From: a virus
Direction: 5' to 3' (one strand)
Virus record (IMG/VR): IMGVR_UViG_3300017917_000462
Location: 1-25,693 of that record
DNA length: 25,693 nt
Shown here: positions 2,798-22,633 of the stretch, piece after piece
Layout: each line of letters begins with the position of its first letter
How positions within the stretch are numbered: position 1 is the first letter of the stretch
Translations under genes and position numbers: made by a program
Notes under the pieces: generated by a model
Database searches by the model: none
Told to the model about the DNA's origin: nothing
What the model saw: the letters and a program-made list of their open reading frames with translations, nothing else

Positions 2798-2935
2798 ATG
2801 GACGAGATTGATGAATCCGACCCAAGATATATTTTCTTTGCAAAACTTAGGGAATTAATAATGGAAAAAGACCTGGAGAACGACGAGGTAGCTGCTGCTG
2901 TCCTTGGCTGGGCATACGAACGATTGGCTGAGTAA
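2798..2935 (+). CDS. Small acidic protein, 45 aa, unknown
   Basis: The protein starts MDEIDESDPRYIFFAKL and ends in an amphipathic helix with AAAVLGWAYERLAE. It is acidic, soluble and of no family I recognise. Two ATG codons stand in tandem (2795 and 2798); the second is at the leaderless spacing used elsewhere in the window. Its TAA stop shares one base with the ATG of the Stealth-like gene (TAATG), so the two are translationally coupled and may work together. Confidence 0.65.
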   Translation: MDEIDESDPRYIFFAKLRELIMEKDLENDEVAAAVLGWAYERLAE

Positions 2936-3606
2936 TGGATTTAGTTTACATCTGTAGAGATGGAGACAACGAAGAGTTAAGATACTCTATTAGGTCTGCT
3001 GTTGCAAACCTGCCTCACGATAATATTTGGGTATTTGGTGGTAAACCAGATTGGTATATTGGAAACCACGTTAGACTAAAACAAAATACAAATAAATACG
3101 ATAATGCTAGAGCTAACCTTGCTGCTATTAGTAGAAATTATGATGTGTCAGAAAATTTTGTATTAATGAATGATGATTTTTTTACTGTCAGACCTGTTGA
3201 TGAAATTAAAAATTATCATCGTGGAACAATGCAAGAACATATTGACATGATTCAGGTTAGTGTTGGATACCGTGTATTACTTGAAGAAACACAAGATGTC
3301 CTTAACTATTTAGGATATGATAATCCACTTAGTTATGAACTTCATGTTCCAATGATAATGAATAAAAACAATCTTGCTAAAGTTATAAGAACATTAGGTC
3401 TATGGCGTTCTAACTATGGCAATATGTATAATGTTGGTGGAGAAAGATATGACGATGTTAAAGTTCATCACCACGTTACCCTGGAACAAATTATGAATAA
3501 TCCTTTGCCATATATTTCTACAAATGACGATACATTTCAAGGAGTTCTGGATGGGTATTTAAAAGACGCTTTTCCAGAACCAAGTAAATACGAAAAGCAC
3601 CCCTAG
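2935..3606 (+). CDS. Stealth-like sugar-phosphate transferase
   Basis: A 223-aa protein whose N-terminus matches the conserved regions of Stealth capsule proteins: DLVYICRDGDNEELRYSIRS (2-21) resembles CR1 and the start of CR2, and FVLMNDDFF (75-83) is the CR2 acidic NDD motif expected to bind metal and nucleotide sugar. Stealth proteins transfer hexose-1-phosphate from a nucleotide sugar to a glycan. It is shorter than cellular members and I see no clear CR3/CR4. The C-terminal part has VHHHVTLEQ, which may replace them. It is coupled to the small gene upstream, and its last nine bases overlap the 3' end of the convergent tRNA-Arg gene. A GT-A-like transferase of another family is the alternative. 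Confidence 0.75.
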   Translation: MDLVYICRDGDNEELRYSIRSAVANLPHDNIWVFGGKPDWYIGNHVRLKQNTNKYDNARANLAAISRNYDVSENFVLMNDDFFTVRPVDEIKNYHRGTMQEHIDMIQVSVGYRVLLEETQDVLNYLGYDNPLSYELHVPMIMNKNNLAKVIRTLGLWRSNYGNMYNVGGERYDDVKVHHHVTLEQIMNNPLPYISTNDDTFQGVLDGYLKDAFPEPSKYEKHP

Positions 3607-6792: not shown

Positions 6793-7157
6793 TATGCCCC
6801 CATGCTTCCGCCAGCTCCACCAGAGCTAAATGCTCCACCAGAACCTTCACTACCAATACTTTGAGACCCTCTACGAGCCTTTCTTGGCTTTCTAATAATA
6901 TTTTTAGACCTACGAGCAGCAGTCAGGCTTGTAGGATATTTGATGCCTACACCTGGAATGGTGGGATTTGGAGTTGATGAAGGATTTAAAGCACCGTCTG
7001 CTTTATTAGCATTAGGCTCATTAATGTGTAGGGCTGCTAATTGTTTACCTGCCTTACCAGCAGTTTCGTGACAACCCATAACTTCACCAGTTGATGTTTT
7101 TACTACAGGATATCCCGAACATCCATGTGAGCCACGCTCTCCGATATGGTAAGGCAT
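6792..7157 (-). CDS. Small MPYHIG-type phage protein, 121 aa
   Basis: The N-terminus MPYHIGERGSHGCSGYPVV, then GEVMGCHETAGKAGKQLAAL, is a motif I recall from short actinophage and cyanophage proteins of unknown role; it has two Cys and two His that might bind metal. The rest is low complexity: a Pro/Asn/Thr linker, a basic AARRSKNIIRKPRKARRG segment and a Gly/Ser-rich tail. The basic part could bind DNA or the inside of a capsid. Both ends join neighbours through TAATG. Confidence 0.65.
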   Translation of the reverse strand: MPYHIGERGSHGCSGYPVVKTSTGEVMGCHETAGKAGKQLAALHINEPNANKADGALNPSSTPNPTIPGVGIKYPTSLTAARRSKNIIRKPRKARRGSQSIGSEGSGGAFSSGGAGGSMGA

Positions 7158-7651
7158 TATGCCTCCTGTGAAGCGTCTTGCTGTGCTGGGGCTTCTTCCA
7201 TAGGCTCTGGCTTAACGACTGTACGTAATTGCCAAATCCATTTCTGATGCATGGTCTGGCGGTCTGCCATAAAGTTAGCAAGACCATTTTGCTTTGCAGC
7301 AGTAGCCAAGTCAAAGCCTTGAACAAACTTTGGTGTAACTAATTCAATAGATGCCAGTAAGTCAGCAGACATTGCTTCGTGGTCAGTAGTTACTGGGTTT
7401 TCTGGGACTGTTGATAGAGATGCTAGACGAGATAGTGAGAATGGGGCGTACTGTTTGTTGTCAACCATTCTAATCCACTCTGCAAGTGGGTCAATAGCGG
7501 AATCAAAGTCCTGATAGATGTCTCCAAAGAACTCGTGGTATTGTGGGAAATCGTCTGTCTCAACGTTCCAGTGATATCCGTGTGCCTTGAACTTCAGGGC
7601 AATGGTATCAGCAAGCAATACTTTTAATAGATTGATAAGTTCTTCATTCAT
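7157..7651 (-). CDS. dps: Dps/ferritin-like protein
   Basis: A 164-aa ferritin-like four-helix protein. H27 (in HWNV), H39 (in HEFF), D54 and E58 (in DPLAEWI) fall at the same spacings (12, 15, 4) as the ferroxidase residues His51, His63, Asp78 and Glu82 of E. coli Dps. The protein would oxidise and store Fe(II) and could guard DNA against peroxide. The C-terminal tail is a Pro/Glu/Gln-rich extension rather than the basic tail used for DNA binding. It is the first gene of a five-gene unit ending with thioredoxin and looks leaderless. It could also be a virion protein, as its downstream neighbours suggest. Confidence 0.88.
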   Translation of the reverse strand: MNEELINLLKVLLADTIALKFKAHGYHWNVETDDFPQYHEFFGDIYQDFDSAIDPLAEWIRMVDNKQYAPFSLSRLASLSTVPENPVTTDHEAMSADLLASIELVTPKFVQGFDLATAAKQNGLANFMADRQTMHQKWIWQLRTVVKPEPMEEAPAQQDASQEA

Positions 7652-7720: not shown

Positions 7721-8107
7721 TTAACTGATTGCGATTTGTTTTGGCTTTTTCTCTTCTGGAATGTTACGGATTAGGTCAATAAACAAAATACCGTCCTCAA
7801 ATCCAGCAGACTCTACCTCAAAATATTCAGGCAAGGTAAAGGCACGAGTAAACTTACGAGCAGCAATACCCTTGTGGATATATGCCTTTTCGTCAGCAAC
7901 CTTATCTGCCTTAATTGTTAGAGTATTTTTTTCAGTAGTGATAGTAATGTCACTCTTTTTAAAACCAGCCACGGCAAATTCCATTACGATTTTGTCGTCA
8001 TTAACTTTGACAACATTGTAGGGTGGGAATGCAGTTGTTGCTGGGGTGTTTGGAAAAAACTTGTCAATATCTAGACCAAGTGTTCCGAATGGTGAATTAA
8101 TAACCAT
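7721..8107 (-). CDS. Hsp20-family small heat shock protein
   Basis: A 128-aa alpha-crystallin-domain chaperone. The region from PPYNVVKVNDDKIVMEFAVAGF to IDLIRNIP covers the IbpA-type beta-sandwich, with the RKFTRAFTLPEY and FEDGILFIDL strands typical of the family, and the C-terminus ends in an IAIS anchor resembling the I-x-I motif. It holds unfolded proteins without ATP. AGGAG is nine bases before the ATG at 8107 but touches the ATG at 8116, so I use 8107. The leader (8156-8108) holds a short ACCTGCC/GGAGGT hairpin that could be temperature sensitive; that is speculation. It shares a divergent promoter with the glycan island. Confidence 0.92.
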   Translation of the reverse strand: MVINSPFGTLGLDIDKFFPNTPATTAFPPYNVVKVNDDKIVMEFAVAGFKKSDITITTEKNTLTIKADKVADEKAYIHKGIAARKFTRAFTLPEYFEVESAGFEDGILFIDLIRNIPEEKKPKQIAIS

Positions 8108-8162
8108 ATATATCATCTCCTATTAAGCGAGTTGTATACCTCCAAATGGCAGGTACTTATAT

Positions 8163-8209: not shown

Positions 8210-9172
8210 TTGGCTAACATAGTATTTTTAGGAAACTTTGATGTTCCTTTTAGTAGTGAGAATCATCACGTAAACAGCCTAGAGGCATTAGGACATAAGG
8301 TATTAAAGCTTCAAGAGCGAATCATGCCCTCAGAAAAAATTTATCGCAGAACCATGTGGTTTGAAGCAGACCTATTTGTTTGGGTTCATACTCATGGATG
8401 GGAAACCCCAGGCAATCTTGAAATGACAGAAGTATTAAGAATGCTAAACCAGCAAGGCATTCCAACAATGACCTATCATCTAGACCTTTGGTTTGGATTA
8501 GATAGACAAAAAGATTTGGAAGAAGATAACTTTTATAAAACAATCGGACACTTCTTTACAGTAGATAAACTTATGGCTGATTGGTTTAATGAAAACACAA
8601 AAGTTAAAGGACACTTCCTTACCGCTGGAGTCTATGACAAAGAATGCTATTTAGATAAATCATATGACAAAAATAATTTTGATTATGATGTTATCTTTGT
8701 TGGTAGCAAAAGATATCATCACGAATATCCATATCGCCCTCAGCTAATTGATTTTCTTAGAGCAACATATGGTTCTCGCTTCTTGCACGTTGGTGGAGAT
8801 GGAGATACAGGAACAGTGCGTGGCAATGAACTTAACAGAATTTATGCTAAAAGCAAAATTGCCATTGGAGATACTTTAAACTTAGGATTTAACTATCCTT
8901 ATTATACTAGCGATAGACTATTTGAGTCTACTGGACGTGGTGGCTTTACTATCTACCCTCGCATTGTAGGACTAGACAATTATTTTGAAGATGGTAAAGA
9001 GATTGTGTTTTATGAGCACGGTAACTTGCAAGACCTAAAAGAAAAGATTGATTATTATCTTGTTAATGATGAAGAGCGAGAGTCAATTAGAATTGCTGGA
9101 CATAATAGAGCTAAGGCAGAGCATACCTATAAACATAGATGGGCAACAATCCTTGGAGAGTTAGGTCTATAG
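8210..9172 (+). CDS. CgeB-like GT-B glycosyltransferase
   Basis: A 320-aa GT-B enzyme. The N-terminal Rossmann half begins ANIVFLGNFD and the C-terminal half has the CgeB/Glyco_trans_1_2 pattern: a YDVIFVGSKR strand, an IYAKSKIAIGDT segment, SDRLFESTGRGGF, and the closing GNLQDLKEKIDYYL, NDEERESIRIAGHNRA helices. Such enzymes add a sugar from a nucleotide donor to a surface glycan. The start is TTG, supported by AAGGA and by the MANIVF beta-strand. It is the first gene of the island and its stop overlaps the next start (TAGTG). Confidence 0.85.
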   Translation: MANIVFLGNFDVPFSSENHHVNSLEALGHKVLKLQERIMPSEKIYRRTMWFEADLFVWVHTHGWETPGNLEMTEVLRMLNQQGIPTMTYHLDLWFGLDRQKDLEEDNFYKTIGHFFTVDKLMADWFNENTKVKGHFLTAGVYDKECYLDKSYDKNNFDYDVIFVGSKRYHHEYPYRPQLIDFLRATYGSRFLHVGGDGDTGTVRGNELNRIYAKSKIAIGDTLNLGFNYPYYTSDRLFESTGRGGFTIYPRIVGLDNYFEDGKEIVFYEHGNLQDLKEKIDYYLVNDEERESIRIAGHNRAKAEHTYKHRWATILGELGL

Positions 9173-9831
9173 TGAAATACGTTGCCTGTTTGCCTTTTCG
9201 TGTTAAAGAATTCAGAGATGAGTTTATGTCTGGCTGCAAGTTAGATATTTTTGAAGTTGACAATACAGAAAACAACATTGGCATTATGGCTAGTCACAAT
9301 CTTGGGATAGAAAAGCTTTATGCAGATAATGCAGAGTGGCTCATTATTTTTAGTGCAGCAGTAAGGTTTGGAGAAAGTGGTGGTCTTGACATTATTCAAT
9401 ATCTTTCCAAAACAGATGCTCAGATTGTTGAAGGAAAGCCTTTGTTTGGCTGGCATCTAGTGGCATTTAGAAAAGATGTTATTGATACAGTAGGTGGCTG
9501 GGATGAAAACTTTACTCCATATGGCTACGATGATTTAGACTATGCAATTAGAATTAAAAAAGCAATTCCAAACGTTAAATGGGAAAAGATTATTTTTGAT
9601 GTTTCTGATACAGTTATGGGTCACAGCATTAACCTTGGCGGAGTAAGGTCTAACGACAACATTCTTCACCAATATTTTTATAACAAGTGGGGACACTATC
9701 CTGGTGGAGGTCATCCAGCAGAAGAATATTACGCTACCCCATTTAATATTCCTGGGGCAAGCATAAGTTATTGTCCAACAGAAGATGATGAAAATCATGT
9801 TAGCAAAATAACCAAAGGAAGGTATAGCTAA
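9172..9831 (+). CDS. GT-A glycosyltransferase (GT2-like), 219 aa
   Basis: The start is GTG at 9172, overlapping the previous TAG; upstream in-frame extension into the CgeB-like gene is unlikely to be translated. The first residues KYVACLPFRVKEFRDEF give a GT-A first strand. IGIMASHNLGIEKL and the later VGGWDENFTPYGYDDLDYAIRI match the GT2/GT7C region in which the GW and (E/D)D residues bind acceptor and catalyse transfer. The protein is short for GT2 and lacks a plain DxD. It is coupled to the methyltransferase by TAATG. Confidence 0.75.
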   Translation: MKYVACLPFRVKEFRDEFMSGCKLDIFEVDNTENNIGIMASHNLGIEKLYADNAEWLIIFSAAVRFGESGGLDIIQYLSKTDAQIVEGKPLFGWHLVAFRKDVIDTVGGWDENFTPYGYDDLDYAIRIKKAIPNVKWEKIIFDVSDTVMGHSINLGGVRSNDNILHQYFYNKWGHYPGGGHPAEEYYATPFNIPGASISYCPTEDDENHVSKITKGRYS

Positions 9832-10541
9832 TGACAGAGATGGTAAAAGCTGTTCTCAATGGAGAATGGGAAATGGTCTTGCCTAAACACAGAGCAGATA
9901 GACCAGAATGGTACACCGAAAAGGGATGGGAAAAGAAAAGACTAAAGTCTATGCATGATGGTCTTGGCAAGGGCGATGTAATCTATTACGTTGGTGCAGA
10001 AGAAGGTGAGATGCCAGCACTATGTCAGATATGGGGGGCAGAGGTGGTCCTGTTTGAACCTAATCCAAAAGTCTGGTCTCATATGCCAGCAATCTGGGAA
10101 GCAAACAATCTTGAGTTGCCACTAGCAACAGTTCCTGGATTTGCATCTGACGTAACCAATAACCTTGCTCGTGTTTATAAAGGAGAGTTCCCACCAGAAG
10201 CACAGCAAGAAATTGTGGCAGCCCACGGATTTAAAGAGCTATACCTTGAAGGTGACTACTATGGTCAAGTAACAATTGACGCTTGTGTTCAACACTATGG
10301 CATTAAGCCACCTACAGCAATCACCCTTGACGTTGAGGGTAGTGAATGGAAAGTTTTGGGGGGAGCATACCAAACAATGAAAGAATACAAGCCAAAGATT
10401 TGGCTATCTGGACATCCAGAATTTATGTTTCATCAGTATGGTAAGTACCTTGCAGAATTAAGGCATTGGCTTAAAGAAGAATTTGGCTATACAGAAACAC
10501 TATTAGATTACCAACACGAGGCACATTTATACTATGAATAA
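9831..10541 (+). CDS. FkbM-family methyltransferase
   Basis: A 236-aa SAM-dependent methyltransferase. The SAM-binding motif is in DVIYYVGAEEGEMPAL with the acidic loop VVLFEPNPKVW, and the FkbM hallmark ITLDVEGSEWKVLGGA follows near residue 164. FkbM enzymes O-methylate sugars or polyketides. Among four transferases it most likely methylates a glycan, perhaps as a cap. It is joined to its neighbours by TAATG upstream and an 8-base overlap downstream. Confidence 0.85.
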   Translation: MTEMVKAVLNGEWEMVLPKHRADRPEWYTEKGWEKKRLKSMHDGLGKGDVIYYVGAEEGEMPALCQIWGAEVVLFEPNPKVWSHMPAIWEANNLELPLATVPGFASDVTNNLARVYKGEFPPEAQQEIVAAHGFKELYLEGDYYGQVTIDACVQHYGIKPPTAITLDVEGSEWKVLGGAYQTMKEYKPKIWLSGHPEFMFHQYGKYLAELRHWLKEEFGYTETLLDYQHEAHLYYE

Positions 10542-11391
10542 TATTAAAGCATATCTATTAGCCGTTGATGGCAAAAGTTTTCCAGACCACAAATGGGACT
10601 TTGGTTTTGTTAAAGAAGCATTTGATAAAAATAAAATAACTTATGAAGAAGTAACCTCATTACCCAAAGTTGATAAAGCATTTGTAGTTATCTGTGGTTT
10701 TGAAAATAGAAGTCTTACGGAAGAGGTTGCTAGAGAATTACGCAAGGTTCAAAAGGTTGTTTTGTTTGTTACAGCAGATGAACGTGGGTTATTTAGAGCA
10801 GACAAAATAGCACACCACAATATTGATATTTGGATTCAGTCTCCGTATCCTGGCAGACATGACCAATTTAATAAAATGCCAATAGGATGTCCATCACATA
10901 TGAAAGATAATCTTCCTGAGTATGCCAACAAAAAGAATGATGTATTTTTCTCTGGTCAGATAACTCACGATAGGCGTAAACAACTTGCAGAGGTGATGCC
11001 CAATATTCCTAATGGATTATTTAATCCTACCCCTGGATTTACTCAAGGATACGAACCAAAAGAATACTATAAGCACATTCTTGAATCTAAAATAACTCCA
11101 TGTCCAGCAGGAACTTCAACCATTGATTCATTTAGATTTTATGAAGCTTTAGAAATGTTATCTTTACCTATTGGAGATAATAGAAGTTCCAGCAATGAAA
11201 AGTACGATTATTGGGATTTTGTTTTTGAACAAAATACTCCAGTACCAAAAACATCAAACTGGTATAATTTACCTGAGATTACAAAAAATGTTTTGTATGA
11301 TTATCCTGCAGATATGCACAGGGCAGTCAGTTGGTGGATTAAATATAAAAGAGATTTTGCATATAAAATTATGGAGCAAATAAATGGATAA
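10534..11391 (+). CDS. Exostosin-like glycosyltransferase
   Basis: A 285-aa protein with the pattern of bacterial exostosin (GT47)-type transferases: NDVFFSGQITHDRRKQL near residue 134, the EYYKHILESKITPCPAGT segment, and SFRFYEALEMLSLPIG, which is the nucleotide-sugar binding face of the second Rossmann half. The N-terminal half has VVICGFEN and QKVVLFVTADE strands. It would transfer a sugar in glycan assembly. It overlaps its neighbours by 8 bases on each side. Exact donor and acceptor are unknown. Confidence 0.72.
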   Translation: MNNIKAYLLAVDGKSFPDHKWDFGFVKEAFDKNKITYEEVTSLPKVDKAFVVICGFENRSLTEEVARELRKVQKVVLFVTADERGLFRADKIAHHNIDIWIQSPYPGRHDQFNKMPIGCPSHMKDNLPEYANKKNDVFFSGQITHDRRKQLAEVMPNIPNGLFNPTPGFTQGYEPKEYYKHILESKITPCPAGTSTIDSFRFYEALEMLSLPIGDNRSSSNEKYDYWDFVFEQNTPVPKTSNWYNLPEITKNVLYDYPADMHRAVSWWIKYKRDFAYKIMEQING

Positions 11392-12157
11392 AAAAGACAT
11401 AACAGTTGTACTTGTGACTTCTGTCATTCCTAGCCATCCTGAAACATATATTGTTGAAGAGACTATTAAAAGTATTAGACATCATTTACCAGATAGTGAA
11501 ATCATTCTTCAGATTGATGGATTAAGAGAAGAACAGGCACACCGTAAAGAACAGTATGATGAATACAAAACACGAATGCTTTGGAAGTGTTTGCATGAAT
11601 ATAAAAATGTTTTGCCAGTTATTTTTGAAGAACACTCTCACCAAAGCACAATGATGAAAAAAACAATTGATATGATTAAAACTCCACTTATGCTTTACAT
11701 TGAAGGAGACACTCCGCTAGTAATTGATGAACCAATTGACTGGACTGCCTGTATTAGTCTTATTGATTCTGGTAGGGCTAATACTGTTCGTTTTTATCAC
11801 GAAGCTACCGTCCCAGCTGTTCACGATTGGCTAATGCTAGATATGGTTGGTGAATTTTTACAAACATATCAGTGGAGTCAAAGACCTCACCTATCGTCTG
11901 TACAGTATTACAAAAATGAAATACTTAATAACATTCCAGACAAAACCTTTATTGAAGATTATGTTCATGGAATGGTACACGAATCTTATGTTATTCCCTG
12001 GGCAAAGTATGGGTCTAGAGAAGGCTGGAACATTCACAAACTTTGGATTTATTATCCTAGCATGACAAACTCCAAGCGTTCATATCATACTGATGGTCGT
12101 CAGGGATTAAAGAAGTTTACTGGTGATGACATTTCTTGGGGATTAACAGAAGCATGA
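11384..12157 (+). CDS. GT-A-fold glycosyltransferase, 257 aa
   Basis: The start DITVVLVTSVIPSHPETYIVEETIKSIRHHLPDSEIILQIDG (described here in parts: first strand, then the VEETIKSIRHHL helix, then IILQIDG) is a GT-A nucleotide-binding fold. PLMLYIEGDTPLV near residue 102 is where a DxD-type metal site is expected, written as EGD. The C-terminal half is rich in Trp, His and Tyr, as in acceptor-binding sites. It probably adds another sugar. It overlaps the next gene by ATGA. Confidence 0.68.
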   Translation: MDKKDITVVLVTSVIPSHPETYIVEETIKSIRHHLPDSEIILQIDGLREEQAHRKEQYDEYKTRMLWKCLHEYKNVLPVIFEEHSHQSTMMKKTIDMIKTPLMLYIEGDTPLVIDEPIDWTACISLIDSGRANTVRFYHEATVPAVHDWLMLDMVGEFLQTYQWSQRPHLSSVQYYKNEILNNIPDKTFIEDYVHGMVHESYVIPWAKYGSREGWNIHKLWIYYPSMTNSKRSYHTDGRQGLKKFTGDDISWGLTEA

Positions 12158-13188
12158 AGCTTGGAATTATTGCTAGAGCAGACAAAACTGGTCTTGGCAA
12201 TCAAACTAAAGAATTAGTTGATATGCTCAAACCAGATAAAATCTTATTGATTGACTCTTCACATTTTAATGGAAATAAACAATATCCAGAATGGTATGAA
12301 GGGTATAATGTAATGACCACAAGTGAAGGATTTGCCACCTATGCAGAGGTTGGACAATTTTTAACTGATATAGATGTTGTAATTAGTTGTGAAATATTTT
12401 ACAATCACAGGCTAACTGCACTTGCTCACCGTCGCAACATTAGAACAATCTTACAATACAACTATGAATTTTTTGAACATTTTGTTCACGATGGCATAAG
12501 ACAACCAAACTATTTACTTGGACCAAGTTTATGGAATATAGATAAAATGAGAGAGTATTTTGGAAGTCATTCCAGGATAATGCATTTACCACCACCAACT
12601 AGTCCAGAAATATTCAAAGAAGCTAAAGAAATTAATCAGGCTAAGACTCATAAACGGATTCTTCATGTTGCAGGTAAAAGAGCACACAATGACAGAAATG
12701 GTACAGACATCGTTATTGAGATGCTTAAATATTCTAAAGCAGATTATGAATTAGTAGTTACTAGTCAAAGTGATTACAATCCAGATTGTGACGACCCAAG
12801 ACTAACTCTAGATAAAAGCAATCCAGATAATAGGGCTGACCTATATAGTGGATTTGATTTAATGATTCTACCTCGCAAATATGGTGGATTGTGTCTTCCA
12901 ATGAATGAAGCTTTGCTGAGTGGCATTCCTGTTATTATGACAAATATATCACCTAATAATACCATCCTACCTTCAGAATGGCTTGTAGAGGCTTCCTGGG
13001 ACCGCAGAATAAACTTTAAGGGTCCAGCAGATTCCTATGAGACAGACCCACAAAAGTTAGCAGAACTTGTTGATAAATTTATAAATGACTATGATATTCC
13101 TGCAGCAAAGCAACAAGCATATGAAATTGGATACAATAACTTTTCACCAGATGTTTTAAAAAATAGATACTTATCTATTTTAGAGTAA
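12154..13188 (+). CDS. GT4-like glycosyltransferase
   Basis: A 344-aa GT-B enzyme of the GT4 type. The start MKLGIIARADKTGLGNQT carries the N-terminal glycine loop, and the C-terminal domain has the hallmark LPRKYGGLCLPMNEALLSGIPVI, including the Glu that contacts the donor nucleotide. The start at 12154 (ATGA joint) is preferred to the upstream in-frame TTG at 12136 since the protein then begins on its first beta-strand. It is the last gene of the island and is followed eight bases later by a strong terminator. Confidence 0.88.
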   Translation: MKLGIIARADKTGLGNQTKELVDMLKPDKILLIDSSHFNGNKQYPEWYEGYNVMTTSEGFATYAEVGQFLTDIDVVISCEIFYNHRLTALAHRRNIRTILQYNYEFFEHFVHDGIRQPNYLLGPSLWNIDKMREYFGSHSRIMHLPPPTSPEIFKEAKEINQAKTHKRILHVAGKRAHNDRNGTDIVIEMLKYSKADYELVVTSQSDYNPDCDDPRLTLDKSNPDNRADLYSGFDLMILPRKYGGLCLPMNEALLSGIPVIMTNISPNNTILPSEWLVEASWDRRINFKGPADSYETDPQKLAELVDKFINDYDIPAAKQQAYEIGYNNFSPDVLKNRYLSILE

Positions 13189-14202: not shown

Positions 14203-14487
14203 CTATTCAATCGTTAAGTTTTGCCAAGTGTTAGCCCAGTCTGCTTTTGTTTTATGTCTATTAAATTCTCTAGATACCTTGCCAGCATCCAAATAAACTC
14301 CACCCCAAACACCATATTCTTTGTTTGAGATACCAACAGCAAAACACATTTTAGCTACTGGACACATAGAACACATTTCATCTATGGCTGGTCTTAGTTC
14401 CAAGTCTTCTTCGTATTTATCAAAGAATAGATTGGTGTCAAAGTCAAGACACTGGGCATCCTCTTTCCATTCATCTTTGTGGCTCAT
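14203..14487 (-). CDS. WhiB-family iron-sulfur transcription factor
   Basis: A 94-aa Wbl protein. The four cluster ligands are C13, C39, C42 and C48 (CSMCPVAKMC), and the GVWGG turn follows at 59-63, all as in the family; a basic C-terminal HKTKAD tail could touch DNA. WhiB proteins bind a [4Fe-4S] cluster and act with the primary sigma factor in actinobacteria. They are almost confined to actinobacteria and their phages, so this gene is the best host marker here. It may tune host or phage promoters during infection. It overlaps the 77-aa gene upstream by about 17 bases. Confidence 0.95.
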   Translation of the reverse strand: MSHKDEWKEDAQCLDFDTNLFFDKYEEDLELRPAIDEMCSMCPVAKMCFAVGISNKEYGVWGGVYLDAGKVSREFNRHKTKADWANTWQNLTIE

Positions 14488-16222: not shown

Positions 16223-16765
16223 TTATTCTGCTTTAGCCTTTGGTGTAACAATTGGCTTTGCTGGGTCTGCCTTTGCAGCAGGAGCCTCAGCTTTAACTGG
16301 CTTGTTGTTCTGGTCAATGTGCTTGTGAACATCAACTAGGTCTTCCATTGCCACTAGGTGAACATCTTTACCATGTGCCATTGCTGTACCTGCCATATGT
16401 AGATGGGCACCAGTGGAGGCGGAACCACTTGGTGTATTCTTACCTCCACCAACTTTACCAATGACTGACTTGCCACCCTCAAGTGGTGAATCAATTTCAA
16501 GTGCTGGCTTTTCTGCAAGGTGTGCGTATAGCCAATAGAAACCATCATCTGAAGACTGCACTAGGCAATGTCCTAGAACATCTGTCCAGAAAATCTTCTT
16601 GACCTTTCCATCAGTAATAGCCTTGATTGGCTTTAGTTCAATTGCTTTTTTGATACCCCAGTCAGAACCACGGTGTGGGTGCTTTCTGTATGATGCCATG
16701 TTTCCGAGTTCATCCCCACGGTTTCCTGGGAATGGGTCGAAATATTGTGCTGGTTTAACTGCCAT
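16223..16765 (-). CDS. M23-family peptidoglycan endopeptidase (endolysin)
   Basis: A 180-aa zinc metallopeptidase of the LytM/M23 type. Ligands visible are H31 and D35 (HRGSDWG) and H121/H123 in the GAHLHM motif, with H82 in the YAHL segment as the catalytic partner. It would cut peptide cross-links of the cell wall. There is no signal peptide, so it needs a holin, and no separate wall-binding domain; the C-terminus is an Ala/Lys/Pro tail that might bind anionic wall polymers. A virion-associated lysin is the alternative. The leader holds a stem-loop and AAGGAG, and three tRNA genes lie directly upstream. Confidence 0.87.
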   Translation of the reverse strand: MAVKPAQYFDPFPGNRGDELGNMASYRKHPHRGSDWGIKKAIELKPIKAITDGKVKKIFWTDVLGHCLVQSSDDGFYWLYAHLAEKPALEIDSPLEGGKSVIGKVGGGKNTPSGSASTGAHLHMAGTAMAHGKDVHLVAMEDLVDVHKHIDQNNKPVKAEAPAAKADPAKPIVTPKAKAE

Positions 16766-17123: not shown

Positions 17124-17462
17124 CTATTCTACTACACGACCATAGTCGTCTTCTAGTCTTTCGATATCATCTTCCCCAAGATATGAACCAAACTGAATCT
17201 CAACAATTTTTAAATCAGTTTTAGCAATGATTCTATGCTCTACATTCTTGGGAACATTAACTGTAACACCATGAAACAATGGAAGCTTTCCACCACGAAC
17301 AACTGCTGTTCCTGTGCCAGAAAGAACATACCAAGTTTCACTACGATACTTATGTTTTTGTAGGCTAAGTCTTTGACCAGCATGAACATTCAGTATTTTA
17401 ATTTGAAAATGTTCACCAGTCTTTACAACCTCATAGTTGCCCCAGGGTCTAATAGTTTCCAA
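17124..17462 (-). CDS. Mannose-6-phosphate isomerase, type II cupin
   Basis: A 112-aa cupin with the full pattern of the C-terminal isomerase domain of bifunctional GMP/PMI proteins: RPWGNY at 5-10, QRLSLQKHKYRSETWYVLSG (metal ligands H37 and E42), PKNVEHR (H76) and the ending GSYLGEDDIERLEDDYGR. It interconverts fructose-6-phosphate and mannose-6-phosphate. Together with the phosphomannomutase-like enzyme at 1101-1823 it would make mannose-1-phosphate. The start is TTG in a TAATTG joint with the upstream gene. A stand-alone cupin of this size is usual in phages and some bacteria. Confidence 0.88.
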   Translation of the reverse strand: METIRPWGNYEVVKTGEHFQIKILNVHAGQRLSLQKHKYRSETWYVLSGTGTAVVRGGKLPLFHGVTVNVPKNVEHRIIAKTDLKIVEIQFGSYLGEDDIERLEDDYGRVVE

Positions 17463-17669: not shown

Positions 17670-17715
17670 AACCCTTTCTAGGTCTGTAACAATTATACAT
17701 CAACTAGAAAGGGTT
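17670..17715 (-). promoter_or_regulatory. 12-bp inverted repeat flanking a promoter and masking a Shine-Dalgarno
   Basis: AACCCTTTCTAG (17670-17681) and CTAGAAAGGGTT (17704-17715) are perfect complements 22 bases apart. Between them lies TATAAT (minus, 17697-17692), whose start site near 17685 leaves only the promoter-proximal arm in the new transcript. A read-through transcript has both arms and would fold the AAAGGG site of the 66-aa gene into the stem; TTTTCATT follows the stem, so it may also act as a terminator. Confidence 0.6.
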
Positions 17716-17720
17716 GTCAA

Positions 17721-18011
17721 TTATTTCTTTGTGGCTTTTGGTGTCTCTTCTGCTACATCTTTAAGTGCAATTGTCTGACGGAAAGCAGCATCAATTTCTG
17801 CTCTAGTAAGTTTACCGTCTTCAAGGAATGCAAGGGATAATAGTTCTACAACTTTGGCTACAGCCATGATACCACCCATAGTGGCACTGAACCAAATAGG
17901 AATATCAAGACCGCTTACCTGTCCTGCTACCGAACCTGCACCAATAACACCAAGTGCTGATGCAACGAATGTAGCGACAATACGCATAATAACGTTTCCA
18001 AGTAAATTCAT
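17721..18011 (-). CDS. Holin-like two-pass membrane protein, 96 aa
   Basis: Two hydrophobic segments (about 5-27 and 37-58: VIMRIVATFVASALGVIGAG and PIWFSATMGGIMAVAKVVELL) are followed by an EDGKLTRAEIDAAF segment and a Lys-rich tail. The form matches small actinophage membrane proteins called holins. AAGGAGG precedes the ATG at 18011, so the longer upstream frame is not used. It is coupled to the 59-aa membrane protein by TAATG; the pair could be holin and antiholin. Confidence 0.72.
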   Translation of the reverse strand: MNLLGNVIMRIVATFVASALGVIGAGSVAGQVSGLDIPIWFSATMGGIMAVAKVVELLSLAFLEDGKLTRAEIDAAFRQTIALKDVAEETPKATKK

Positions 18012-18190
18012 TAGTCTTCCTCCTTTTCTGCTGCGTTTCTGAGTGGGTAGGTAATAATCCATAGACCCATTGTGCCTAGAATTGCCCAGCCTACTACATC
18101 TTTTGCTGAACCCTCAAGGACTAGCCATGCAACAAACATACCTAGAAGGGTCCAGGCTTGACCTAGCATATCATTTAAAAATTTCTTCAT
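18011..18190 (-). CDS. Small two-pass membrane protein, 59 aa
   Basis: The frame has a short basic start (MKKFLNDM), two hydrophobic segments (AWTLLGMFVAWLVLEG and VVGWAILGTMGLWIITY) and a charged tail. AGGAGG is eight bases before the ATG, and the start shares one base with the PA14 gene stop (TAATG). A holin or antiholin role with the 96-aa protein is plausible; alternatively it could serve the exported PA14 protein directly upstream. Confidence 0.8.
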   Translation of the reverse strand: MKKFLNDMLGQAWTLLGMFVAWLVLEGSAKDVVGWAILGTMGLWIITYPLRNAAEKEED

Positions 18191-20613
18191 TATTTTATCC
18201 TCCTTCTTAATGTTCCACCTGATGAACCACCTGCTGATGCTCCACCTGATGCTGGTGCTGCTGCTGTTAGGGCTGCCCCTGTAGCTGCGTTAACGGCTGC
18301 TCCAACAGCAACAACTGCTGTTACAACAACCTTTTTTGATTCTTCTCTCACCTTTGGGGACATATCGGCTCCAACGTTACCAATAAAGTTAATTGCATCC
18401 ACAAGGGCTACTGCCCCTGGGATTGCTGCTAATTCTTCTGAGATTACAATGTCGTCTGCTTGGGCTGCTACGAATAGGGCTTCAAGTGCCTGTTCATATT
18501 CTGGTGAGCCTTGTGTTGCTGTTTCAAATGTTTGTAAAGCTGCTTCTTTAAGCTGTTCTACCTGTGTATCTGTTAGTTGTGCTGGGTCTACTTTTTCCAA
18601 ATTAATGTCAGTTAGACTTGTAATAACTTCTGGAATGTTTGGGTCTCCAGTTGGTTCTGGGGTTGGGACTGGCTCTGGGGTTGGTGTTGGCTCTTGTGTT
18701 GGTTGTTCTGTTGGTTTAGGTTTTGGTTGTGGGTCTACAATTGGTTTTTCTGGTGTTGGAATGTTTGCTAGTTTTTTAATAGCATTTGAAAGCATTGCAG
18801 AAGCACCTTCAACTACTGCCTGTTGAGCAATAGCTTTTTGTGATACTGATTGTGCCATTCTTGTAATTGACTGTACCTGCTGTTGAGCATTTGTAACCGA
18901 TGTTGTTTGTGTAGACACATTTGATTGAGTCACGTCTTTGGCTTTGATTTCATTGTTTAAAGCATCTTGTAAATCATTAACTGCATTAATATTATCTGAA
19001 ATATCTTGTCTTGTTTGGTCAAGGCTGTCTTGTAATAGTTGCAAAGCAAACTTTTCTGATGTTAGTGTAGATTGTTTTTGAGCAATAAGTAATTGTTGTT
19101 CTGCATATGATACTTGAGCTTCTTGAAGTGCTTGTTCTGCAGAGTTTAGCAATACAGTAGAAGCAATTACATCTGCATTTGCACCTAATTTAAGTTGTTC
19201 TGCATCTGTCATTTCGGTTTGTTTTGTTTGCCAATTTGATACCGCAGCATTATAATCGTCAATTGCTAATAAGTATTCTGTGTTTGCTGTTGTTGAGTTT
19301 GTAATGGCTAGTGAGTATGCTGATTGTGCAATTGCTAGGTCTGCTTGCTTTTGTTGCAATACCGCTAGAAGTGCAGGGTCATTTTCATATGTTGGTTGTA
19401 CTGGCTGATTTTGTGAGAACCATGATGCAGGAACTAGATTCCAGTCAACCTGTGAAGAATAATATAGATAGTTACAGGCTCCGCCACCCCACTCATACAT
19501 CCAGGCATCAATTGCATATGATTGACCTGCATTAAGTGTTATATTGGAACTCCAGTTTCCTCCACATCCTTTTAAATACCAGTTGTCATTTACAACTGTT
19601 CCACCAATTGTCATATACCATCCATCGTCAACGTTAGCTAAGAATTGATAACTCATTGTTGTTGGAACTGTTATATATCCTGTGTAGTGAATCATAATAT
19701 AGTCGCCACCACAACCCTCAATGTCTCCACCACCCCAGTTTTTTGCAATCTGAGAAACAGTAATTGTTTTACAATATGTGTATGCTGTGTCAGAACGTTG
19801 TGGGTTTGGCTGTGGAATGTTCTTATAAATTTTTGCTTTTAATCCAGAAATTGTTGGTTGTGAGTTTGCTGGATAAACTGCAATAAGATTATGTGTATAG
19901 TTATAGTTTGCTGTATCTACTGCATTTTGTGCGTTTGTAAGTTGTTGTAATTTTGTTTGTACATTTGCCAATGCTTGATTGTATGCATTAGATTTGCTAT
20001 CAACAATTGAACCTTTTGTTTGAACATTGGTTACGGATGCATTGTAATTTAATACCGCAGCATTATATGCAATATTAGCTAGACTAAAATCTTCATCTGA
20101 CTTTTGTTTTTTAAAATTAGCAATGTTTAATTTATCCTGAGAGTCAATTATTTTTTGTGACAAGTCTGATAATTTTTGAGTCTCTGTTTGTAGTTCTGAT
20201 GTTTTGATTGTAACTATAGAAGATTGTTCAACAATATTAGTTGAAACAATTTCTAGTTGACTTTGCTTTGTTTGAAGATTTAGTTTTGCGTTTTCAAGTG
20301 CAGATAAGGCAGATTGTACAATTACTGACTGCTCCTCGTTTGCCTCAATTGCAAGATTAAGGTTAGCCTGAGCCTGGTCTAAAACGCTCTGTGAGGATTG
20401 TAGAGACGTTTCTAGGTCGTCTTTGGATGTATTTAGGGCATTAAGTTCTGCCTGTTGTGTTGCTAATTCTGCTTGTGCTGCAGCAACATCAGCCTGTGCT
20501 TGAGCTACCAATGCGTCATATTCTGATTGCGTAATAGCAACGGCAGGGGAGGCATAGGCTAGTGGCAAAAACATTAAGATAAATGCTAGGGTTATATTTG
20601 CAAGCTTTTTAAT
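18190..20613 (-). CDS. Large exported coiled-coil/PA14 surface protein, start codon ATT
   Basis: About 807 aa. Order: signal peptide (1-27: KKLANITLAFILMFLPLAYA, cut near SPAVA), long Gln/Ala-rich coiled coil (about 30-230), PA14 domain (about 255-400) with the DDGWYMTIGG motif and four Cys likely forming disulfides, second coiled coil (about 410-625), a Pro/Thr/Glu linker, a small helical domain, a hydrophobic Ala/Val segment near the end and a Gly/Ser tail ending RRRIK. PA14 domains bind carbohydrates. The topology suggests a stalk that holds PA14 outside the cell with a C-terminal membrane anchor. The first ATG (20574) would cut off the basic end of the signal peptide; ATT at 20613 has GAGGAG eight bases upstream. 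A tail fibre is less likely because of the signal peptide. Confidence 0.82.
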   Translation of the reverse strand: MKKLANITLAFILMFLPLAYASPAVAITQSEYDALVAQAQADVAAAQAELATQQAELNALNTSKDDLETSLQSSQSVLDQAQANLNLAIEANEEQSVIVQSALSALENAKLNLQTKQSQLEIVSTNIVEQSSIVTIKTSELQTETQKLSDLSQKIIDSQDKLNIANFKKQKSDEDFSLANIAYNAAVLNYNASVTNVQTKGSIVDSKSNAYNQALANVQTKLQQLTNAQNAVDTANYNYTHNLIAVYPANSQPTISGLKAKIYKNIPQPNPQRSDTAYTYCKTITVSQIAKNWGGGDIEGCGGDYIMIHYTGYITVPTTMSYQFLANVDDGWYMTIGGTVVNDNWYLKGCGGNWSSNITLNAGQSYAIDAWMYEWGGGACNYLYYSSQVDWNLVPASWFSQNQPVQPTYENDPALLAVLQQKQADLAIAQSAYSLAITNSTTANTEYLLAIDDYNAAVSNWQTKQTEMTDAEQLKLGANADVIASTVLLNSAEQALQEAQVSYAEQQLLIAQKQSTLTSEKFALQLLQDSLDQTRQDISDNINAVNDLQDALNNEIKAKDVTQSNVSTQTTSVTNAQQQVQSITRMAQSVSQKAIAQQAVVEGASAMLSNAIKKLANIPTPEKPIVDPQPKPKPTEQPTQEPTPTPEPVPTPEPTGDPNIPEVITSLTDINLEKVDPAQLTDTQVEQLKEAALQTFETATQGSPEYEQALEALFVAAQADDIVISEELAAIPGAVALVDAINFIGNVGADMSPKVREESKKVVVTAVVAVGAAVNAATGAALTAAAPASGGASAGGSSGGTLRRRIK

Positions 20614-20627
20614 TTTGGGGTCTCCTC

Positions 20628-20643
20628 GTTGGAAAAGTCCAAC
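20628..20643 (-). promoter_or_regulatory. 5'-terminal stem-loop before the PA14 Shine-Dalgarno
   Basis: GTTGGA and TCCAAC make a 6-bp stem with a 4-base loop. The first base is seven bases after the -10 hexamer, so the mRNA should begin with this hairpin, followed at once by GAGGAG. It may shield the 5' end. Confidence 0.55.
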
Positions 20644-20649
20644 AAAAAT

Positions 20650-20658
20650 ATTATAGCA
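20650..20658 (-). promoter_or_regulatory. Extended -10 (TGCTATAAT) for the PA14 gene
   Basis: TGC TATAAT on the minus strand. The predicted start near 20643 is the first base of the 20628-20643 hairpin. It would drive the PA14, 59-aa and 96-aa genes. Confidence 0.6.
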
Positions 20659-20844: not shown

Positions 20845-20853
20845 ATTATAGCA
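20845..20853 (-). promoter_or_regulatory. Extended -10 (TGCTATAAT) overlapping the terL stop
   Basis: TGC TATAAT on the minus strand; the TAA stop of terL is part of the hexamer. Six bases later is an ATG at 20838. It would start a short transcript through the terL-PA14 gap. Confidence 0.5.
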
Positions 20854-22633
20854 TATTAAACTGTGTTAAATAGTCTTTAGCATCATCAACAGTCTTCTGT
20901 TCAAAGACAATTGTGTTTTCTGGCAATGCTTCTTTTGGCTTGTCTTTTCTATCTCTAAAGGTATGAATCTCTACCTCTTGATTAATATTTCTTGGTGTGT
21001 GTGAGATTGCACCAAATACCGCACCACAAACAGCATCCGCCAAGTCCTTAGATGATTTACGAGGGTGGTCTACACGATTGTTTTTTACAATCTTAAGCTC
21101 TGTAAGTTCTTCGAACAAAAGTTCGATAGATGGCATAACAAGACGCTCTTCATAAACAAGCATAGCCATATCTTCATAGTGCTTTTTAGCAACAGAAACA
21201 GTATCAGTACGAATACCGACAGCCTTTAGTTCATTTTGAATATCGAATGAGTTCCAGCGGTCAAACGAAACCATACCAATATTAAAACCAAGTCTTCGTA
21301 GATTTTGAATCCATTGCTTTACTTCTGACAAGTTTACAGGACCTTCTTTACGAGGCTCCCACCATGCTACAGCATCTACTACAACTACTGGAACGACTTG
21401 CTCGTAGTCTTTCATTACTTGAACTGATACCCATTTTTCAACGTGAGCAATAGCAACAGCACACTTGTCGTGTCGCTGTGCAAGGTCAGCATGAACAAAG
21501 TAAGTTTTCTCTGGGTCAGGCTCAAAGGTTTCGTCAAATCTTCTAACAGTGTCTAAAGGATTTCTAATTGTCATACAGGCACGAACTTTTTCCTGCTGCT
21601 TAAAGAATGCGTCAGAAGCGTAGGTTGGGATACAGGCAAAGCGTTGCATAGCATCTCCAAGGTCTGTATAGAAAGCTAGTTTAAAATCATCAATCTTACG
21701 AGTAGGGTTTACCACCCAAGTTGGTCGCTTTAGTGCAAACACACCTGGATACTTGTATGAGATAATGCTGTCTTCGTCCCACTCAATTTCTAGCGTATTT
21801 CCTTCTGCAGTTTCTGGTAGGTCTGGATTCATAATAAACTTGTGAGTCTTAGTAACAACATCTTTTTCTGCAATTACTGCATCGTAACGCTGAGAAATAA
21901 AGTCACCAGGATAACGTGGGAACGATAGAAGAGCTACCTTGCCTAAGTCTGGAAAACGAGAATCTACAGAAGCACGGAAGGCTTTATAAATATTGTCTGC
22001 TGTCTTACCTTGGTCATTTCCAGTAGTATTTTCCTGAGCAAAACCAGAAATCTCGTCAAGTACTGCTAGGATAAGGTTAAGACCCTCGTGAGATTCACGC
22101 TCAGAGTGACCAGAATAAACAGTAAGAGACTTGTCAAACTCAATTGATTCTGCCTTAGCGTAGAACTTACCAGCAAACCAAGGTGAGCGTTCAATCTTGG
22201 TTTTAAAACCCTTAAAGAAAACGTTCTTAGCCTGTTGTGCGTTAATAGCAACGTTAATAATATCAATAGCGTCACCTGCTGGCTTACCAAAGTATCGTGC
22301 TGGGTCTTTAAGACAAAGTAGTTTATAAACGATATAGGCACACGCTACTGTAGATGTAAAGTCCTTGCCAGAACCTTTACCAAGTTGTAGGATAACTTCA
22401 TTCTTTGTGTACTTCTTGTAATATCTGCGACCTTCGGTGTCGCCCATAATGTCAATCAAATCTTCTAGCTTATAGATTTGACTCATTGCTTCAACAATGT
22501 CATACTGCACATCTGATAACGGTGGTTGACCAAGATAGTCAGCACCCTCTACAAACGTACGAGCATCTACTGGAGTCTCTTCAAAGTTATTGTTTTTTAA
22601 AACTTCAAAGAACTCATTGAACATCGTTGACAA
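20846..22633 (-). CDS. terL: Terminase large subunit
   Basis: A 595-aa phage packaging motor. Walker A is GKGSGKD (85-91), Walker B is LILAVLDE (187-194) with Asp193 and the catalytic Glu194. The C-terminal nuclease has acidic residues in VHADLAQRHDK (Asp383), VSFDRW (Asp458) and KDLADAV (Asp530/Asp533). It cuts concatemeric DNA and pumps it into the prohead using ATP. The start is a TTG at 22633 with AGAGG nine bases before it; an ATG three codons later is the alternative. It overlaps the probable small terminase by 20 bases. Confidence 0.95.
   Translation of the reverse strand: MSTMFNEFFEVLKNNNFEETPVDARTFVEGADYLGQPPLSDVQYDIVEAMSQIYKLEDLIDIMGDTEGRRYYKKYTKNEVILQLGKGSGKDFTSTVACAYIVYKLLCLKDPARYFGKPAGDAIDIINVAINAQQAKNVFFKGFKTKIERSPWFAGKFYAKAESIEFDKSLTVYSGHSERESHEGLNLILAVLDEISGFAQENTTGNDQGKTADNIYKAFRASVDSRFPDLGKVALLSFPRYPGDFISQRYDAVIAEKDVVTKTHKFIMNPDLPETAEGNTLEIEWDEDSIISYKYPGVFALKRPTWVVNPTRKIDDFKLAFYTDLGDAMQRFACIPTYASDAFFKQQEKVRACMTIRNPLDTVRRFDETFEPDPEKTYFVHADLAQRHDKCAVAIAHVEKWVSVQVMKDYEQVVPVVVVDAVAWWEPRKEGPVNLSEVKQWIQNLRRLGFNIGMVSFDRWNSFDIQNELKAVGIRTDTVSVAKKHYEDMAMLVYEERLVMPSIELLFEELTELKIVKNNRVDHPRKSSKDLADAVCGAVFGAISHTPRNINQEVEIHTFRDRKDKPKEALPENTIVFEQKTVDDAKDYLTQFNML

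Follow-up and report, generated by a model that had tools for sequence, protein, structure and literature searches.

A predicted PA14-tipped, membrane-anchored stalk encoded with lysis genes in phages of freshwater actinobacteria

The DNA analyzed here, referred to below as the window, is a single 25,693-base virus record from IMG/VR. Its TerL (20846-22633) is 55% identical to the TerL of Streptomyces phages of the Stanwilliamsviridae, and a WhiB-like protein, a mark of actinophages (PMC10202952), is encoded at 14203-14487 (PF02467, E 8e-12); the virus is a phage of freshwater actinobacteria. On the minus strand, an open reading frame at 18193-20613 (stop at 18192-18190, open from before 20613) specifies an 807-residue protein, here called the stalk, composed in order of a signal peptide, a helix, a PA14 domain, a second helix, a proline-rich linker, and a C-terminal domain (CTD) that has a hydrophobic helix and ends in RRRIK. 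The features of the locus are as follows.

20650..20658, minus strand: predicted extended -10 promoter-like element TGCTATAAT, recognized by sequence and conserved upstream of relatives
20628..20643, minus strand: 5'-leader stem-loop GTTGGA-CTTT-TCCAAC, recognized by sequence, immediately 5' of the Shine-Dalgarno sequence
20622..20627, minus strand: Shine-Dalgarno sequence GAGGAG
20611..20613, minus strand: ATT start codon; the aligned position in the clade is ATT, ATC or ATA
20536..20613, minus strand: signal peptide IKKLANITLAFILMFLPLAYASPAVA, residues 1-26, with a hydrophobic core and an AxA site; cleavage predicted after ASPAVA
19891..20529, minus strand: stalk arm 1, a single helix, residues 29-241 (AF2 pLDDT ~95)
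19381..19887, minus strand: tip PA14 domain, residues 243-411, with invariant Asp329-Asp330 (Pfam PF07691; AF2; Foldseek)
18766..19377, minus strand: stalk arm 2, a single helix, residues 413-616 (AF2 pLDDT ~95; length covaries with that of arm 1)
18601..18765, minus strand: proline-rich linker, residues 617-671 (composition; low pLDDT)
18193..18600, minus strand: C-terminal anchor domain (CTD), residues 672-807, with hydrophobic helix 762-784 and the end RRRIK
18011..18190, minus strand: TM59, 59 aa, two hydrophobic helices; its start overlaps the stalk stop (TAATG)
17721..18011, minus strand: holin-like protein, 96 aa from an ATG that overlaps the TM59 stop (TAATG)
17692..17720, minus strand: perfect consensus promoter TTGACA-17-TATAAT after the holin gene (12 of 12 matches)
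16223..16765, minus strand: M23 endopeptidase without a signal peptide (PF01551, E 2.7e-8; PHROG endolysin, E 3.7e-7)

The first three genes form an operon, with the stalk gene first, followed by those for TM59 and the holin-like protein, each joined to the next by a TAATG overlap. This arrangement bears out the original prediction, made from the sequence of the locus, that the stalk and two small membrane proteins are made as one unit: TM59 has two hydrophobic segments and the holin-like protein has several. The latter matches a PHROG holin family (phrog_443, E 0.004) and, with a better score, a family labelled nuclease (phrog_26427, E 2.8e-20). The consensus promoter at 17692..17720 likely marks the end of the operon, and the M23 endopeptidase is, judging from its database matches, probably the endolysin of the same lysis region.

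No in-frame ATG, GTG, or TTG precedes the signal peptide in the window sequence, and the first in-frame ATG (20574) falls within the signal peptide. The ATT at 20613 is located 8 nt past the GAGGAG Shine-Dalgarno sequence, and homologues support it as the predicted start: across ~30 distinct loci of the window's clade the start codon is mostly AUU, otherwise AUC or AUA, and never AUG, while a Shine-Dalgarno spacing of 6-9 nt is kept in about 30 relatives (members with these starts are the window, at 20611-20613, and L002-L007, L012-L021, and L076-L118). TM59 genes beside these stalk genes have an ordinary start codon, and ATG or GTG starts occur in other lineages with a fused CTD (L121, L123, L127, L132, L134, and L144). 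A single copy of TATAAT combined with TTGTTGG..CCAAC is present in the window, against 0 expected from shuffles, and the leader stem-loop, for which we infer a function, is found in most relatives of the terL clade. Gene finders will misplace the start of stalk genes in this AUU/AUC/AUA clade; if conserved as it appears, such a start would be a rare natural example of a phage gene under selection to begin with a codon other than AUG.

The signal peptide, a hydrophobic segment at residues 762-780 (mean KD 1.91), and the RRRIK end agree with the earlier proposal of an exported, membrane-anchored stalk; LPXTG is absent from the C-terminus (VVVTAVVAVGAAVNAATGAA...RRRIK). The CTD is the best-conserved part of the family and forms a separate -1-frame ORF in relatives in which the gene is split; in the AF2 model of the window protein it is of low confidence together with the transmembrane (TM) helix (pLDDT <50 at 765-807). 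Proline-rich linkers span 108-121 residues in L117, L121, L127, and L123, which have little or no coiled coil, versus 55-73 residues in most others, which would fit a need to maintain reach across the wall.

Prediction of the full chain, which had been suggested as a check on the proposed architecture, returned two helices of ~210 residues each (pLDDT ~95) that flank a beta domain at 243-411, followed by a disordered proline-rich linker and C-terminal helices at 682-784. The pTM was only 0.33, so the AF2 model alone does not establish the global placement of these parts. Among relatives, the lengths of the two arms covary one-to-one (97/86, 101/90, 124/116, 143/133, 149/140, and ~230/219 residues), with a correlation of r = 0.88 over 17 distinct length pairs and no value as high in 20,000 permutations, a figure that overstates certainty because the relatives share phylogenetic history. 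Two relatives depart from this relation, L011 and L120, and both carry N-terminal extensions. When the whole chain was searched with Foldseek, it matched the enterococcal protein PrgA (6z9l) over 726 columns (E 1.4e-8, identity 12%). Because arm lengths covary one-to-one across relatives, the original view of an antiparallel hairpin with PA14 at its tip is well supported, and it draws further on the AF2 model and the PrgA match. A subgroup typified by L012, L015, and L084 has alternating-hydrophobic sequence on both sides of the tip, which we read as a two-stranded ribbon; a structure prediction for L014, which has another type of tip, reached a mean pLDDT of 56 and was used for secondary structure only.

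The hairpin had first been proposed from a YNAAV..QTK pattern shared by the two arms. The copies (residues 183-200 and 454-464, in the 807-residue numbering) do lie at mirror-image heights given the AF2 helix ends, the arm-2 copy mirroring 190-200. As evidence for a hairpin, however, the pattern by itself is weak, since the arms as wholes are no more alike than heptad-preserving shuffles (score 100 versus 97 +/- 13, with 195 of 500 shuffles as high), and we rejected it as proof.

The tip exceeds the Pfam gathering cut-off for PF07691 (E 7.3e-6; 26.3 versus 24 bits) and contains four cysteines. D329-D330 is invariant across 16 sequences and aligns with the PA14 domains of 6m8m and RsgI3, and the best structural matches in Foldseek are sugar-bound PA14 domains and yeast flocculins and adhesins. 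These sugar-bound matches, together with the invariant Asp-Asp of a sugar/calcium site, make it likely that the stalk tip binds a glycan. More than 60 relatives combine the same membrane anchor with exchanged heads. The other heads found on closely related anchors are a distant PA14 lineage (L084, L110, L116, and L151), a beta-module without assignment, recognized by eye (L013, L014, L018, L102, and L125; L014 and L018 gave no Pfam match), and, also by eye, a different beta-domain (L121 and L127) or a beta plus Fn3-like head (L124). Window-type PA14 domains form one supported clade (98/92) with domains from very large freshwater Microbacteriaceae/Micrococcales surface proteins; within it, host rows (L054-L058 and L064, from small-genome members of these groups) are interleaved with phage rows. 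Through this relationship, the heads may report glycans that these bacteria display.

Four of the host proteins (L054, L055, L057, and L058), from metagenome-assembled genomes (MAGs) of freshwater Microbacteriaceae/Micrococcales, are giant surface proteins of about 1200-1500 aa with a signal peptide, PA14, Ig/Fn3-type repeats, an Ala-rich helix, and a G/S linker; they end in a C-terminal multi-TM domain without a Pfam match that resembles the phage CTD-plus-TM arrangement. L117 and L119 carry PA14 on a pure proline-rich stalk without coiled coil, and their PA14 clusters, weakly, with host PA14 and not with other phage tips; it is possibly a separate capture from a host. Pelagibacter phage HTVC008M (L023:7710-9035) encodes a PA14 protein that has curlin-like repeats by eye and whose gene adjoins genes annotated csgF, csgG, and csgB; it was set aside as a relative, its similarity being confined to the PA14 domain and its setting being one of curli genes.

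A TM59 scan of IMG/VR yielded at least 512 relatives, of which 80 loci were fetched and ~67 proved distinct. In essentially all of the distinct loci the CTD is directly upstream of TM59, either as part of a fused exported protein or in the -1 frame (the CTD motif was missed in L126 and L135, the latter being fused by sequence). Phage DSL-LC01 (OQ999401; L053:11698-14532) encodes an exported protein of 944 aa whose end is a TM59-like segment of two helices (28% identity), a faint indication that it may possibly be a natural fusion of a stalk-type protein with TM59. Cultured Streptomyces phages were dropped as relatives despite their TerL identity, as neither stalk nor TM59 was found after terL in the two annotated regions inspected (Yaboi and Francob). 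CTD and TM59 had no match in the phages collection, and PADLOC returned only coiled-coil noise.

Lysis genes accompany TM59 almost throughout. Among 50 distinct TM59 loci with >2.5 kb of downstream sequence, an M23 gene was located within 4 kb in 43, a holin gene in 36, and either one in 47. Four gene orders were observed: terL-stalk-TM59-holin-M23; holin-stalk/CTD-TM59-M23; stalk/CTD-TM59-M23-holin; and stalk-TM59-M23. Where terL is not adjacent, the M23 start usually falls 185-650 nt past the TM59 start. A search for homologues with the same gene order had been proposed earlier; adjacency of CTD and TM59 is indeed kept, but the order of the lysis genes varies. The cassette occurs in unrelated phages, including a siphovirus-like genome (G002) and a myovirus with a tail sheath (G003). 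That the genes stay together in rearranged orders speaks for a common function at lysis, although late co-expression alone could also explain it. Because TM59 and holin or M23 genes accompany the stalk in unrelated phages, its most likely role moves to lysis or progeny release, and superinfection exclusion, one of the possible roles suggested earlier, becomes the main rival. Membership of a lysis cassette is new relative to the original prediction.

In split relatives, the route to the CTD is different. All 23 reach it via a -1 frameshift at a slippery heptamer (CCCAAAA in 14, TTTAAAA in 8, and AAAAAAA in one) that fits X XXY YYZ at the end of the 0 frame, with the 0-frame stop in or one codon past the heptamer in every case (for example L008:7017-7026, L009:6319-6328, L010:7401-7410, and L128:4729-4735, with 19 others). 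The -1 continuation lacks a strong start of its own, ATG starts being nearly absent from that frame, and exchange of CCC and TTT at the heptamer preserves the slip rule while altering the codons. A stem is predicted 5 nt after the heptamer (median z about -2.3 versus mononucleotide shuffles); tested for covariation, it received no support because its pairs hardly vary. The frameshift is absent from the window, whose clade has the CTD fused. The short 0-frame product would be secreted without an anchor, and both the frameshift and the AUU/AUC/AUA start would, as far as sequence can indicate, lower the amount of anchored stalk. A strict rule of two throttles, frameshift or AUH start, was rejected since some fused lineages start with ATG or GTG; throttling is a tendency only.

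Several known systems resemble parts of this arrangement. PrgA is a surface-exclusion protein with a tip domain on a ~40-nm stalk (PMC10588982). Like the phage protein, enterococcal PrgA (pCF10; 6z9l) is an exported, long two-helix stalk that displays a tip domain at the cell surface. PrgA, however, has a protease-type tip, is anchored to the cell wall (LPXTG), is plasmid-borne, and regulates conjugation (PMC10588982), whereas the phage stalk has a PA14 tip and a TM anchor with TM59, and belongs to a phage lysis cassette. The tip itself shares its fold and the Asp-Asp of the carbohydrate/Ca site with PA14/GLEYA lectins (MpAFP PA14, 6xa5; Flo5; Epa1; RsgI3); to our knowledge, none of these is carried on a helical hairpin.

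In BFVD, the stalk matches A0A6J5KND8 (E 2.5e-33) and A0A6J7WJ61 (E 5e-26) of uncultured Caudovirales phages, both of which are, by similarity, very probably family members. So far the family goes under no other name in BFVD than 'PA14 domain containing protein', for entries from uncultured phages, and the match table carries that label alone, without function, partner gene, or recoding. A limited search of the open-access literature found no description of the stalk-TM59 gene pair, its frameshift, or its start codon.

Two sets of lysis proteins are closer in genomic setting. LysF1a of mycobacteriophages is a small two-TM protein, and LysF1b has one TM in N-out/C-in orientation; both are encoded in the lysis cassette and both are needed for efficient lysis (PMC13056207). 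Compared by description, they resemble the stalk system as membrane proteins of a lysis cassette but are much smaller and include no exported stalk or lectin. LysZ of corynephages CL31 and Cog is described in the same source as a membrane-anchored protein of 177 aa with N-in/C-out topology that is needed for full plaque size and whose extracellular part has been proposed to target lipid-anchored glycans of the host during lysis (PMC13056207). By this description, the stalk is like LysZ in being membrane-anchored, encoded with lysis genes, and associated with an actinobacterial host, and it differs in its PA14 domain, hairpin, TM59 partner, and recoding. We did not file the stalk as a LysZ because its signal peptide and C-terminal TM predict the N-out/C-in orientation, opposite to that reported for LysZ.

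We tentatively favor a reading in which the stalk is an envelope-spanning lectin that acts at lysis or release in a manner similar to LysZ or spanins. The protein would be exported by Sec late in infection and held in the host membrane by the CTD and TM59, while the two-helix rod of ~31 nm (213 residues x ~0.15 nm) and the proline-rich linker would carry the tip through the cell wall to bind a host surface glycan outside. Once the holin fires and the M23 enzyme cuts peptidoglycan, this membrane-to-surface tether would help to break up or release a glycan-rich outer envelope so that progeny escape, a role of the kind proposed for LysZ and comparable in principle to that of spanins. Output of the anchored form appears to be throttled, by the -1 frameshift in split lineages and by the AUU/AUC/AUA start in the window's clade. 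Support for the lysis reading comes from the anatomy of the protein, the lysis-gene association in 47 of 50 loci, its recurrence in unrelated phages, the TAATG coupling, and the stalk having its own operon; constancy of the CTD-TM59 pair, the kept reach, the LysZ precedent, and, weakly, the DSL-LC01 protein point the same way. Against it, the closest full-length fold match is a surface-exclusion protein, PrgA; the differing topology and size of LysZ, the low model confidence of the CTD and TM, and the lack of the frameshift in the window also count on that side. With somewhat more reserve, we suggest that the family may represent a new class of lysis factor with which phages act on single-membrane bacteria, a lectin tether built on CTD and TM59 with exchangeable heads and stalk types and a throttled anchored form, serving as a counterpart of spanins or as an outside sensor for the holin. 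With >500 TM59 relatives in IMG/VR, one conserved anchor, many heads, and two translational controls, the family is widespread and testable.

The main rival, which we consider less likely than the lysis reading, is surface exclusion or receptor masking, in which the tip would occupy or shield a host receptor glycan and block superinfection or the re-adsorption of progeny to the infected cell or its debris. The full-length Foldseek match to PrgA (6z9l, E 1.4e-8, 726 columns) favors this, as do the exchange of heads on a constant anchor, which is expected where receptors differ, and the placement of the tip in one group with PA14 domains from giant freshwater Microbacteriaceae/Micrococcales surface proteins. 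But the tip of PrgA is a protease domain and not PA14. Exclusion genes, moreover, tend to be early genes without a tie to holin and endolysin, and here the stalk is found with the lysis cassette almost universally. The same PA14 was not found on tail genes in the records searched, each genome having only one PA14 place; a ligand shared with the receptor-binding protein is therefore not supported, and the idea of one lectin on both stalk and tail fibre was rejected.

A sensor of lysis timing, in which the tip would perceive an outside signal (a superinfecting particle, a neighbouring cell, or a glycan) and the CTD and TM59 would restrain or trigger the holin by analogy with the RI/T logic of lysis inhibition in T4, seems improbable to us. 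The TAATG coupling of stalk, TM59, and holin, the apparent throttling of the anchored form, and the diversity of the extracellular tips would suit such a device, but the holin is upstream, farther off, or not recognized in several lineages, the argument is purely inferential, and we know of no sequence relation between the stalk system and RI. More doubtful still is an adhesin that would make infected or lysed cells aggregate or stick to particles and so aid spread: yeast flocculins and adhesins have the PA14/GLEYA fold, and the host PA14 relatives are large surface proteins, but this leaves the lysis-cassette position, the constant TM59 partner, and the variable tips unexplained. We consider a place in the virion, for example as a tail fibre or receptor-binding protein, very improbable and rejected it; the original prediction had already thought a tail protein less likely. 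Phage tail proteins can contain PA14 domains and coiled coils, and frameshifting is common in tail genes, but the stalk has a signal peptide and a C-terminal TM, matches no PHROG tail family, is separated by ~14 kb from the tail module of G002, a relative of 93 kb, and keeps holin and M23 company in both siphovirus-like and myovirus genomes.

Elsewhere in the window, sugar genes are abundant (8210-13188, 1101-1823, 2935-3606, and 17124-17462) and include several glycosyltransferases, an FkbM-type methyltransferase, a phosphomannomutase-like HAD protein, a Stealth-type protein, and a mannose-6-phosphate-isomerase cupin. A Ferritin/Dps-like protein is encoded at 7157-7651 and an Hsp20 small heat-shock protein at 7721-8116.
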